Shown here piece by piece: positions 56,183 to 59,722 of a stretch of 61,441 nt of DNA (within the stretch, counting starts at the first letter, position 1; each line of letters starts with the position of its first letter). The stretch spans positions 1-61,441 of IMG/VR virus record IMGVR_UViG_3300020463_000022. One strand, written 5' to 3'. A program made the translations under genes and the position numbers. The notes under the pieces were generated by a model. It saw only the letters and a program-made list of their open reading frames with translations, did not search any database and had not been told where the DNA came from. This DNA comes from a virus.

Positions 56183-56254
56183 AACTTTTAATTTTAAGAT
56201 TAATAATAGACGTTATATAATACTATATAAAAAAAGGGACGATCTTTCGCCCCC
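56183..56254 (-). promoter_or_regulatory. Array element 7: terminator hairpin plus conserved leader
   Basis: Minus-strand order: stem GGG-CGA / TCG-CCC with one mismatch (56236-56252), a seven-T run, ATATAGTATTATAT near-palindrome, then AACGTCTATTATTAATCTTAA up to the start codon. The hairpin plus T-run is a good intrinsic terminator; the conserved leader follows. Confidence 0.7.
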
Positions 56255-56278
56255 TCTTTTTTCCGCTATCTTCCTATA

Positions 56279-56461
56279 TTATGTGGAAGATGTGTCCCAT
56301 ACCTTGAAGTTAAATTTTTGCTTGTCTGATTTGTTTTGGTATTTACCAAGTACGTCAAACAATGCATCAAGACATTCTCCATCGGTCATTTCATCGCCAT
56401 CTGTAGTGACAACCTTAGACACGTCATTAAATAGATTTACAAATTCTTTTTCCCAGTTCAT
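56279..56461 (-). CDS. Small acidic hypothetical protein
   Basis: 60 residues starting MNWEKEFVNLFNDVSKVVTT, with DGECLDALFDVLGKYQN. Starts in an ATGA overlap with the upstream 79-aa gene. Function unknown. Confidence 0.6.
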   Translation of the reverse strand: MNWEKEFVNLFNDVSKVVTTDGDEMTDGECLDALFDVLGKYQNKSDKQKFNFKVWDTSST

Positions 56462-56697
56462 AGCGTAGGTATTACTTCTTGTTTCTTTTTTCCAAAGTAG
56501 TAGTACGCCCCTCCATCATTGCCCTCATCATCTGATTGAGACAATATTGCAGTTCCATCTGTAAATTCAATAAGTAATGGGTTTTTATACCAGTAATCTC
56601 CCATTTCTTTTTTTGTAAGATATCTTACATGACTTATAGTTTTACCTACAAGTAATTTTCTTGCGTGGTTTTGCCACTTAATTTCTGTTTTACTCAT
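56458..56697 (-). CDS. Small hypothetical protein
   Basis: 79 residues from ATG 56697, directly after the conserved leader; an upstream ATG at 56805 would read through the array element and is rejected. KWQNHARKLLVGKTISHVRYL then LLIEFTDGTAILSQSDDEG, a compact alpha/beta pattern. Function unknown. Confidence 0.65.
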   Translation of the reverse strand: MSKTEIKWQNHARKLLVGKTISHVRYLTKKEMGDYWYKNPLLIEFTDGTAILSQSDDEGNDGGAYYYFGKKKQEVIPTL

Positions 56698-56750
56698 AAT
56701 ATTTAATTTAAGATTAATAATAGACGTTGAGGGATAGTCTCCTACCCCTC
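56698..56750 (-). promoter_or_regulatory. Array element 6: hairpin plus conserved leader
   Basis: GAGGG-x-TAG / CTA-x-CCCTC stem with one mismatch (56729-56750), then AACGTCTATTATTAATCTTAA and an AT-rich tail to the ATG at 56697. No T-run directly after the stem. Confidence 0.7.
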
Positions 56751-56755
56751 TCGTT

Positions 56756-57022
56756 TTAATTTCCTTCAGCAAACTGAACGAAATCATCTTGATATGAATT
56801 CTCAAGATAGTTTTTTAACTTGGGCATTGTTGTCTTAACGTGCCTAGCTAAATATTTAAATGATTCTCTTTTACTTGGCTCTTTAATTTCTAAAGAACCA
56901 TTTTCGTCAAAGTAAAAATTAAGATTTAAGTTAGTCATCTCTTCGTTTACTTTATGTGTTATCCATATTGACACCAACTGATTATCGTGGTCAAAGGATG
57001 TACTAAATTTTGAATGTAACAT
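56756..57022 (-). CDS. Small hypothetical protein
   Basis: 88 residues starting MLHSKFSTSFDHDNQLVSIW; N-terminal beta strands (LNLNFYFDENGSLEI) and a helical end. One base after the stop of the 66-aa gene, hence coupled. No family recognised. Confidence 0.6.
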   Translation of the reverse strand: MLHSKFSTSFDHDNQLVSIWITHKVNEEMTNLNLNFYFDENGSLEIKEPSKRESFKYLARHVKTTMPKLKNYLENSYQDDFVQFAEGN

Positions 57023-57023
57023 A

Positions 57024-57224
57024 TTATTGGATTTTAAAAATTATACTCTCTACTATCTTGTTCGTTGAAGAATCAAATAAATCTTCTTCTACATGCTTTA
57101 TCCGATGAACATCAGAATCCTCATGGAATCTAAAGTTAACATCTACATCTTCCAAAGTTCTGTTGTTTAATTTTAAATCTTTTTCTATCCTTGATAGAAA
57201 TCTTTTTATTTCACTTGCTTTCAT
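57024..57224 (-). CDS. Small hypothetical protein
   Basis: 66 residues: ASEIKRFLSRIEKDLKLNNR, a helical start, then DVDVNFRFHEDSDVHRIKHV. Shares the conserved array leader (element 5) upstream. Function unknown. Confidence 0.6.
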   Translation of the reverse strand: MKASEIKRFLSRIEKDLKLNNRTLEDVDVNFRFHEDSDVHRIKHVEEDLFDSSTNKIVESIIFKIQ

Positions 57225-57300
57225 AATATTAAATTTTAAAATTAGTAATAGACGTTATATAATATTATATAAAAAAATGAGAGGTAGAAAAATCTACCCC
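57225..57300 (-). promoter_or_regulatory. Array element 5: terminator hairpin, palindrome and leader
   Basis: Minus-strand order: GGTAGA / TCTACC stem (57283-57298, loop four), CTCA then seven Ts, a perfect ATATAATATTATAT palindrome (57257-57270), AACGTCTATTACTAATTTTAA, then ATG 57224. Same composite layout as element 7. Confidence 0.75.
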
Positions 57301-57317
57301 CCATCTGAAAAACTAAT

Positions 57318-57827: not shown

Positions 57828-57880
57828 ATAATATTATTTAAAGTTAGTAATAGACGTTGGAGGGAAATACATCCCTCCAA
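57828..57880 (-). promoter_or_regulatory. Array element 4: hairpin plus conserved leader
   Basis: TTGGAGGGA / TCCCTCCAA perfect 9-bp stem with a six-base loop (57857-57880), then AACGTCTATTACTAACTTTAA and ATG 57827. No T-run. Confidence 0.75.
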
Positions 57881-57885
57881 TCATA

Positions 57886-58848
57886 TTAAACAAAAACTCT
57901 TCCTAAACCATTGTCAGCAGTAACCTTGCCACCCAATCCTGTGGATTTTTGTGCAACGATATTACTAAACTGGTTGAAGATAGATTGGTCAAGTCTTTGA
58001 AGACTACCAGTCAATTTAGACTCTTGTCTTGAATTCTCTGACCCTCCTTTGTGTGTGCTATAATGCGTAACACCACTAAATAAACCCCATAGTGTTTTAC
58101 CCTTATAACTCATTTCTTCAGCGACTGACTTTGTGACTTTCTCACAAATATTAATCTTCCTTGTACTATACTTATCTTGGGCAATAGCCATAGAAAGTTT
58201 AGTATCAACTCCACTAATTTTTTCAATCACTTTTTGTGCAAAGGAATCATCAATCTCAATGTTTGCCATCTTATTAAAAGTCTCATACAAGCTTGTATCA
58301 GACTCTTCAAGATTTTCCAATGCTCTTAATGATACATCGATTAGTCTCCTCATATTGCTCGTATGACGTGCAGAGGATTCTAATGATTTTTTCATTGCTG
58401 AGAATTGATTGTCACATGAAATTGTAACTCCAGTAGTACCCCATCTTAATGAGGTGCTACCATCATGAGAATTAATAGCGGTTGCATAACGCTTTATTGT
58501 ATCTTGACCAACTTTGAGCGGTTCCAGTTCCAACTGCATTACAACTCTTCGACCTCCTTTGAAAATCTGCCCTTGAGTTATTGGTTTCCCAATTACATCG
58601 CCGACATTCAAAACAAGTTCGGCGAGTTCAGAATTTTGGAATATTTCGTATTGATCAGAAAATGCACCAAAACAATCTTTGTTATCCAAACGTACAGCAC
58701 CATAAAAATTGGTGTTGAATGTTTCAATTCCGTGATTGAATTGTAATGGTTTTTTCTCTACTTTCCAATTCATACCAAATTTGTCCAAAGTATTTTCTAC
58801 TTCTGACTTGCTAATAAACTCTTGATTTTTTGTAATAGAATTTTTCAT
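57886..58848 (-). CDS. DUF932 phage/plasmid-type protein
   Basis: 320 residues. GIETFNTNFYGAVRLDNKDC, YEIFQNSELAELV and the block INSHDGSTSLRWGTTGVTISCDN identify the DUF932 / TIGR03299 family found on phages and plasmids, of unknown biochemical role. Largest gene of the early array, preceded by element 3. Confidence 0.85.
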   Translation of the reverse strand: MKNSITKNQEFISKSEVENTLDKFGMNWKVEKKPLQFNHGIETFNTNFYGAVRLDNKDCFGAFSDQYEIFQNSELAELVLNVGDVIGKPITQGQIFKGGRRVVMQLELEPLKVGQDTIKRYATAINSHDGSTSLRWGTTGVTISCDNQFSAMKKSLESSARHTSNMRRLIDVSLRALENLEESDTSLYETFNKMANIEIDDSFAQKVIEKISGVDTKLSMAIAQDKYSTRKINICEKVTKSVAEEMSYKGKTLWGLFSGVTHYSTHKGGSENSRQESKLTGSLQRLDQSIFNQFSNIVAQKSTGLGGKVTADNGLGRVFV

Positions 58849-58901
58849 TTTATATAATTTTAAGATTAGTAATAGACGTTGGGAGGTTTAACCCCTCCCA
58901 A
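58849..58901 (-). promoter_or_regulatory. Array element 3: hairpin plus conserved leader
   Basis: TTGGGAGG / CCTCCCAA perfect 8-bp stem (58879-58901, seven-base loop), then AACGTCTATTACTAATCTTAA to ATG 58848. Confidence 0.75.
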
Positions 58902-58916
58902 TCACAAACAAATCAA

Positions 58917-59249
58917 TCAAGAAACTTTTGCTGATTTTCGCTTTGTAAAATGTAACAATAACGTGCTACATAGTAGTCCTGATAAAGAATCCTGATCTAA
59001 TGCATCAACTAATATTTTGTCAAAAGTAAAATCAATTAAATGCAGTTTATCATCTTTAATGTAAAATGAAAATTCATCTTCCCAATCATTGTCTTCATAG
59101 ATTGCTGTAATTTCAAATGAATTTACGTCTACCTGTTTTACCTTGACTGATGATGTTTTGTCTCCAGCTAGTTCTAAGGCTATAGCTAGTGTTTGACTTA
59201 CTTTTTTAGCAATAATTAACGTTTCAGTAATTGTGTACATAGTGTTCAT
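58917..59249 (-). CDS. Hypothetical early protein
   Basis: 110 residues starting MNTMYTITETLIIAKKVSQT; alternating strands (FEITAIYEDNDWEDEFSFYI) in the middle and a basic end (HFTKRKSAKVS). No family recognised. Leader is array element 2. Confidence 0.6.
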   Translation of the reverse strand: MNTMYTITETLIIAKKVSQTLAIALELAGDKTSSVKVKQVDVNSFEITAIYEDNDWEDEFSFYIKDDKLHLIDFTFDKILVDALDQDSLSGLLCSTLLLHFTKRKSAKVS

Positions 59250-59298
59250 AATATTTAAGTTAAGATTAGTAATAGACGTTGGAGGGATTGCTCCCTCC
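59250..59298 (-). promoter_or_regulatory. Array element 2: hairpin plus conserved leader
   Basis: GGAGGGA / TCCCTCC 7-bp stem with four-base loop (59281-59298), then AACGTCTATTACTAATCTTAA to ATG 59249. It begins 8 nt after the stop of the upstream gene, as a terminator would. Confidence 0.75.
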
Positions 59299-59306
59299 GA
59301 CCATAA

Positions 59307-59672
59307 TTAAATAGAATCTTCTACTCTATCAAGTAATTCAGAAAGTTCGATTAAATCACTTGGTTTGTATACTCCTGATTCGTGTAAATCAGTCATAAGT
59401 CTGTCATACCAGTAACCATCAAACAAACCGAATAACATATTTGTCATTTCAGATTGGTAATCCTTGGTTGTTCTATCAGCTGATTGGATCATGTTCAATA
59501 CCAATGTCCTGTCATCCCCTGAAAAAATTTCGTGCCTGTCAAATCTTCTGTGGGTATACTCTTTCGTTGGATTCATATGTTTTTGAATCGTTCGAAGATA
59601 ACCAGTATGGGTGTTAGACTGCATTTTTTCCATTTTTTCAAACCATCTGTTGTTTAAACTATTTAAGTTCAT
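59307..59672 (-). CDS. Hypothetical early protein, first gene of the early operon
   Basis: 121 residues. SNTHTGYLRTIQKHMNPTKE, a basic central region, and a helical C-terminus (PSDLIELSELLDRVED). No family recognised. It is the first coding region after the structured leader and array element 1, so it is likely the earliest phage protein made. Confidence 0.6.
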   Translation of the reverse strand: MNLNSLNNRWFEKMEKMQSNTHTGYLRTIQKHMNPTKEYTHRRFDRHEIFSGDDRTLVLNMIQSADRTTKDYQSEMTNMLFGLFDGYWYDRLMTDLHESGVYKPSDLIELSELLDRVEDSI

Positions 59673-59722
59673 TTTAATTAAATTTTAAGATTAGTAATAG
59701 ACGCAGAGGTAATAATACCTCT
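59673..59722 (-). promoter_or_regulatory. Array element 1: hairpin plus conserved leader
   Basis: AGAGGTA / TACCTCT perfect 7-bp stem with a four-base loop (59705-59722), then CGTCTATTACTAATCTTAAAA to ATG 59672. The stem shares no sequence with elements 3 or 4 although position and pairing are kept. Confidence 0.75.

Follow-up and report, generated by a model that had tools for sequence, protein, structure and literature searches.

A hammerhead ribozyme in the early leader of a marine flavobacterial podovirus and an array of matching coreless sites downstream

The virus record IMGVR_UViG_3300020463_000022 of IMG/VR (positions 1 to 61,441; this entire stretch of 61,441 nucleotides is referred to as the window) carries an array of seven intergenic elements on its minus strand, each consisting of a hairpin, a conserved box (CGTCTATTAYTAAYYTTAA), and the start codon ATG of an early gene. 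The array very probably consists of hammerhead cleavage sites that all depend on a single ribozyme at the head of the same early operon. Element 1 carries a complete type I hammerhead, for which self-cleavage is predicted from its structure, whereas elements 2–7 lack a catalytic core but have the cleavage triplet with its UC and, on either side, the strands that can pair in stems III and I. The phage itself is a marine flavobacterial podovirus, whose terminase is 45% identical to that of Flavobacterium phage elemo and 65% to that of MW202828.

A preliminary description, made from the DNA sequence alone, had proposed seven minus-strand elements of hairpin, leader, and ATG, with stems that differ in sequence yet stay self-complementary. 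Both claims hold. When up to three mismatches are allowed, the box matches seven times in the window, compared with a mean of 0.17 and a maximum of 2 in shuffled sequences. All seven elements have the hairpin directly upstream of the box and the ATG 10–12 nucleotides (nt) downstream, and the 3′ arm of the hairpin ends 0–2 nt ahead of position −4 of the predicted cleavage site. The stem sequences vary among the seven hairpins and pairing is retained, with a mean energy of −10.7 kcal/mol versus −3.2 for shuffled and −2.8 for background sequences. A T-run and a palindrome had also been noted at elements 5 and 7; here, the AT-rich palindrome (TTATATA-N4-TATATAA), preceded by a terminator with a T-run, is itself the hairpin at the standard position. 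Intrinsic terminators at all elements were rejected, because the other five hairpins lack a T-run. Two further hairpins near 54211 and 55156, previously regarded as degraded members, do not belong to the array because neither has the CGTC cleavage box. The elements, all located on the minus strand, are as follows (a slash within a site marks the predicted cut):

59685–59722, minus strand: element 1, identified by box match and hairpin; hairpin 59705–59722, box 59685–59703, cut 59700/59699, gene 59307–59672
59260–59298, minus strand: element 2, coreless; hairpin 59281–59298, box 59260–59278, cut 59275/59274, gene 58917–59249
58860–58901, minus strand: element 3, coreless; hairpin 58879–58901, box 58860–58878, cut 58875/58874, gene 57886–58848 (DUF932)
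57838–57880, minus strand: element 4, coreless; hairpin 57857–57880, box 57838–57856, cut 57853/57852, gene 57318–57827
57236–57302, minus strand: element 5, coreless; terminator-like hairpin and T-run ~57270–57302, AT hairpin 57255–57272, box 57236–57254, cut 57251/57250, gene 57024–57224
56708–56750, minus strand: element 6, coreless; hairpin 56729–56750, box 56708–56726, cut 56723/56722, gene 56458–56697
56194–56257, minus strand: element 7, coreless; terminator-like hairpin and T-run ~56229–56257, AT hairpin 56213–56230, box 56194–56212, cut 56209/56208, gene 55853–56182

Only element 1 stands behind a structured leader, which contains the complete hammerhead; this feature had been overlooked previously and explains the sequence of the box. 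As in other type I ribozymes, CUGANGA and GAA flank stem II, and stems I and III surround an NUH triplet, with stem I open. Stem I is formed by AGUAAUG with UAUUACU, stem II by GACC with GGUC, and stem III by ACG with CGU, which places the predicted cut GUC/U at 59700/59699. The loop of stem III contains the element 1 hairpin, followed by CGTC/TATTACT. The Rfam model Hammerhead_1 aligns at 59694–59807 with all core nucleotides in place (22.2 bits, E 0.0033 in a 241-base search), and an independent scan for complete type I hammerheads returned matches in the window and in the related phages G002, G003, and L233 but none as good in 1.7 Mb of shuffled sequence. The ribozyme comprises the following parts:

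59685–59838, minus strand: complete type I hammerhead ribozyme including the element 1 substrate strand (Rfam Hammerhead_1, score of 15 in our own scan, fold)
59829–59838, minus strand: TTTAAAGATT, a possible outer strand of stem I that could pair with AATCTT(T)AAA in the box; the ribozymes of L233 and G005 have AAGATT in the corresponding position
59802–59808, minus strand: inner stem I strand AGTAATG, which pairs with TATTACT of all sites
59795–59801, minus strand: catalytic core CTGACGA (Rfam alignment, fold)
59736–59794, minus strand: stem II, GACC...GGTC with a 51-nt insert; GTCC...GGAC in G002 and G003 is compensatory
59730–59735, minus strand: core GAA (59735–59733) and stem III strand ACG (Rfam alignment, pairing, fold)

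Analogous arrays are present in related flavophages. The same box, accompanied by hairpins of other sequence, occurs eight times in G002 (and the near-identical G001) and nine times in G003. The arrays of G005 (81% terminase identity) and of L233/L131 are built from GCTTCATATACTAATCTTAA and CGTCATATACTAATCTTAA, respectively. Across all these phages and the window, the hairpins vary and the position of the box is fixed. In each phage, a structured leader with a type I hammerhead as its 3′ part stands ahead of element 1; in G003 and G005, as in the window, this leader lies behind a host-type promoter.

At elements 2–7, no CTGANGA was found at the matching upstream place; three stray matches lie elsewhere, at most 160 nt from other sites. 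With no core of their own, these elements could be cut by the leader ribozyme only in trans or at long range. Related phages that differ in their ribozyme arms show corresponding changes at all their sites. Each phage's sites match its own ribozyme at 11 of 11 positions in the window clade (24 sites) and in L233 (8 sites), at 10.3 of 11 in G005, and at 10 of 11 in the unrelated L438, compared with 3.6–9 for the sites of phages with a different arm. Among 13 distinct ribozyme–site combinations, 98.6% of the cells are paired (75.3% after shuffling), and 8 of the 11 pairs show two-sided changes. The covariation score of 0.690 was reached in none of 500 shuffles (0.248) and exceeds that of slid structures (≤0.226); for this count, one extra T in two G005 sites was omitted as a bulge. 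Conservation of the sites extends from stem III across the cut to stem I and drops beyond it. Arrays of a given phage's 12-mer site are confined to its own genome group and to the strand that carries the array, and variation within a genome respects the pairing, mostly via G-U (TATTAC and TATTAT; ATATAC, ATGTAC, and ACATAT; TATAGC, TGTAGC, and TATGGC). The ribozyme arms are thus complementary to separate, coreless sites and are held so by compensatory change, as expected of a natural trans-acting hammerhead. A covariation test and a search for homologs with both stems and leader had been named as checks in the preliminary description; covariation is strong both between box and ribozyme and inside the hairpins.

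If only element 1 were cut, in cis, the other boxes might simply be copies of a shared 5′ leader, a translation or stability element that doubles as the substrate strand of the ribozyme. The A/T-rich 3′ half of the box, 10–12 nt ahead of the ATG, would suit such a role, as would a partial copy of the box (TTAATCTTAAAATTT) without CGTC before the gene starting at 55113. However, the stem III side (ACGUC, GCUUC, or GUGUC), which is destined for the upstream mRNA, is equally conserved at the coreless sites and covaries with the ribozyme. The cleavage dinucleotide UC is kept in all 51 sites of six phages, including the unpaired C17, which is invariant throughout. Moreover, the neighboring hairpins are not homogenized, so that simple gene conversion is unlikely, and the same arrangement recurs in an unrelated lineage. 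Cleavage restricted to element 1 is therefore improbable. The pairing evidence and the proximity of the box to the start codon are shared by a second alternative, in which the leader RNA would regulate by antisense binding to every box without cleaving it, comparable to translation control by a small RNA. Such a role does not account for the retention of the catalytic core, the GAA, and the unpaired cleavage C, nor for relatives with true cis hammerheads at the same place, and appears even less probable.

The array is preceded by a predicted host promoter and a long leader, both on the minus strand:

60054–60086, minus strand: host-type (Bacteroidota) promoter TTTGGTAGATTCGAAC-CTTATATA-TATATTTG with predicted activity, upstream of the leader; same arrangement in relatives
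59700–60050, minus strand: structured leader RNA ending in the ribozyme, its 5′ end placed by the promoter; 5′ part conserved in G002, G003, and L233

The conserved 5′ part (window 59850–60050, minus strand) comprises approximately 200 nt of apparently structured RNA (GGACGGRTGC..CTGTAGATTACT..GACTACATCCTCCTCCA..) that is common to G002, G003, and L233; it has no match in Rfam, and the leader RNA has none among phage isolates. The arrangement of TTTGGTAGATTCGAAC and TAnnTTTG ahead of the array is found also in G003 and G005 and is degraded in G002. Two host-type promoters of the window, at 60086 and 55850 (minus strand), share TTTGGTAGATTCGAAC between the −33 and −7 boxes, as do one ahead of the array in G005 and two in G003; the shared sequence looks like a regulator site.

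The seven elements themselves do not match the Bacteroidota sigma promoter (TTG followed by TAnnTTTG after 17–21 nt), which is present at 60085/60086. This agrees with the earlier remark that the leader lacks a TAnnTTTG box (no matches at the seven elements). Of the three roles proposed at that time (a terminator with an internal phage-specific promoter, RNA processing, or binding of an early regulator), RNA processing is supported, albeit by an unforeseen mechanism, with the box as hammerhead substrate and the leader RNA of the operon as the enzyme. The internal promoter finds no support, since no RNA polymerase or sigma factor was found among the genes searched and the box is explained by its pairing with the ribozyme.

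The same observations bear on two readings modeled on other phages. PeSL-like terminator–promoter cassettes, in which each hairpin would terminate the preceding gene and each box would serve as the early promoter of the following one and which would aid gene shuffling, resemble the array in that small early genes each stand behind a stem-loop and a conserved box. The gene content of the array differs among G002, G003, and the window, and elements 5 and 7 do have real terminators. Nevertheless, the elements have no TAnnTTTG box, no phage RNA polymerase was found, a T-run is missing from five of the seven hairpins, and covariation links the box to the ribozyme arm, which makes such cassettes very unlikely. 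No known promoter motif was found at the box. Gene shuffling at the sites would also be compatible with ribozyme cleavage. Hairpin promoters of the N4 type, recognized by a virion RNA polymerase, would likewise combine a hairpin with a conserved sequence ahead of early genes, and giant virion proteins are present. However, searches with N4 gp50 and its catalytic domain found no credible homolog in the window or its array-bearing relatives, the large proteins of the window lack the polymerase motif R..3..K..6-7..[YF]G, and neither stem nor loop sequences are conserved, so that this possibility can be almost entirely discounted. A protein of 2333 amino acids had no match in PDB, and the DxDGD matches in a protein of 2391 amino acids were rejected as a polymerase signature because they lie inside thrombospondin type 3 repeats. 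A lambda nut/boxA reading, suggested by the resemblance of TCTTAAAA to boxA, was set aside, since the parts stand in the opposite order and the ribozyme accounts for the box in full.

Under the favored interpretation of one ribozyme serving the entire array, the host polymerase would start the early transcript at the host-type promoter at ~60086. The leader would fold into the type I hammerhead and cut itself at element 1 (59700/59699), with a predicted 5′-OH product that begins with UAUUACUAAUC. The freed arms, or the same arms reaching over long distance along their own transcript, would then pair with ACGUC/UAUUACU of elements 2–7 and cut after the C. The polycistronic transcript would thereby be converted into monocistronic mRNAs with a uniform 5′-OH leader of ~25–28 nt, which may affect their translation. 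The 3′ end of each upstream mRNA would consist of a hairpin and a 2′,3′-cyclic phosphate, which would probably shield it from 3′ exonucleases and increase its stability.

A one-core, many-site architecture recurs, with other sequences, in a pelagiphage-like lineage that is unrelated to the window clade. Among at least 343 distinct type I hammerheads (fetched loci), coreless copies of the 12-nt substrate numbered 44 versus 7 for reversed words, among the matches listed; most belong to the flavophage group and to L438, L543, and L457. The terminase of L438 is 57.6% identical to that of Pelagibacter phage HTVC023P. L438 has one hammerhead (CTGATGAGTCC..GGACGAAACAC..GTGTC/TATAGC; a weak match to RAGATH-1-hammerhead in Rfam, E 0.14) and 9–11 coreless sites, each with a hairpin and GTGTC/TRTAGCAWTAGGAGG. 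The distance to the ATG is 24 nt in nine of ten well-formed sites (including the cis site) and 23 nt in the other; there are no site matches on the opposite strand and none to the reversed word. No hammerhead core was found in the stretches fetched from HTVC023P, HTVC027P, 023Pt_psg01, and phage DSL-LC04. In L438, L543, and L457, the leader that follows the cut can be folded into a hairpin with the Shine-Dalgarno sequence AGGAG in its loop, and the arms of this hairpin change together (TATAGC with GCTATA, TGTAGC with GCTACT, and TATGGC with GCCATC). At a guess, the hairpin might aid product release.

Ordinary cis hammerheads ahead of genes are common in the sampled phage contigs, with the cut most often 20–32 nt before an ATG. 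In L341 (2408–3874), four successive early genes are each preceded by a cis type I hammerhead, with leaders such as CGTC/TTAATCTTAAA...ATG; these ribozymes are clearly of type I and likewise fall below the gathering threshold of Rfam (E 0.0017 to 0.083). Most simply, ancestral, one-per-gene cis hammerheads would have lost their cores once the copy in the leader could serve all sites. A natural hammerhead likely became a multi-target enzyme acting on 6–11 coreless sites in flavobacterial podoviruses and, independently, in a pelagiphage-like lineage; the probable route is such a loss of cores. Further hammerhead candidates number seven in L344 and six in L426. A cis type III hammerhead (Rfam E 9e-7) lies right after the coreless array, behind a hairpin, in L131 (3150–3204) and L233 (5560–5614). 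Cis hammerhead candidates, unannotated in the records, are located also in the early gene regions of the cultured Cellulophaga phage phi18:3 (L692, 21910, minus strand) and Flavobacterium phage elemoA (L238, 17296 and 19132, minus strand). The hosts of these two phages are C. baltica and Flavobacterium sp. BAL314, respectively.

Several points weigh against cleavage of the array by a single leader ribozyme. The sequence fits cutting of sites 2–7 in trans and over long range in cis alike, and a pairing of 7–15 bp may slow product release. Because the sites of any single genome are nearly identical, the independent evidence amounts to about four lineages. In G005 and L233, stem II is weak, with either a mismatch or no more than its first pair, and the ribozyme of G005 was identified by visual inspection rather than by the strict scan. 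The window ribozyme, with 22.2 bits, does not reach the Rfam gathering score of 34 bits, which is a database threshold rather than a biochemical feature. An Rfam scan of the whole window gave no hammerhead match at E 0.5, and a tRNA scan also missed the ribozyme. The low Rfam score is probably caused mainly by the long inserts in stem II (51 nt) and stem III (26 nt).

Two palindromes, GTGTCGTTAACGACAC of MW202828 and GTGTCTTTGAAGACAC of G018 and G019, were rejected as analogous elements, because they lack a hammerhead and are also located within genes or on both strands. The perfect palindrome of MW202828 (L119/L120) is present 14 times, often ~32 nt before an ATG and in some cases inside genes, and is operator-like. 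The repeats in G018 and G019 (L113–L118), present on either strand and often bordered by complementary runs at the ends of genes, are terminator-like or uptake-like.

Trans cutting by hammerheads is a laboratory device. According to the review PMC6155905, nucleolytic ribozymes in nature work in cis without exception, and the function of hammerheads in prokaryotes is listed as open. The literature searched, which did not extend to subscription papers and preprints, contained no report of a natural hammerhead with many separate substrates. If the proposed mechanism is true, the window would encode a naturally trans-acting RNA enzyme beside RNase P, with one hammerhead processing a whole operon. 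It would also provide a concrete function for many phage hammerheads whose role is open and illustrate the co-evolution of an RNA enzyme with its many targets.

Element 1 resembles the type I hammerhead (Rfam RF00163) in its CUGANGA/GAA core, three stems, GUC triplet, and open stem I, but differs by its inserts of 51 nt in stem II and 26 nt in stem III and by the presence of elements 2–7 as substrates without a core. The PeSL cassettes of T4-type phages, as cited in PMC4503421, likewise combine a stem-loop with a conserved box ahead of every small early gene, in a region where genes turn over; they carry an early promoter, whereas the box in the window is a predicted ribozyme substrate. In the discontinuous hammerhead of Clec2 mRNA (Martick et al. 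2008, as described in PMC6155905), the catalytic and substrate parts are also far apart in one RNA. According to the same description, however, it is a type III ribozyme in a mammalian 3′ untranslated region, with one site per ribozyme and no further substrate array. Perreault et al. (2011, PMC3088659) suggested that tandem prophage hammerheads, which flank single genes, divide long phage transcripts into mRNAs the length of an operon or a gene. In that case, every site belongs to a ribozyme that cuts itself, whereas here one ribozyme matches 7–12 sites. The ribozyme class is thus known, and its proposed use is new.

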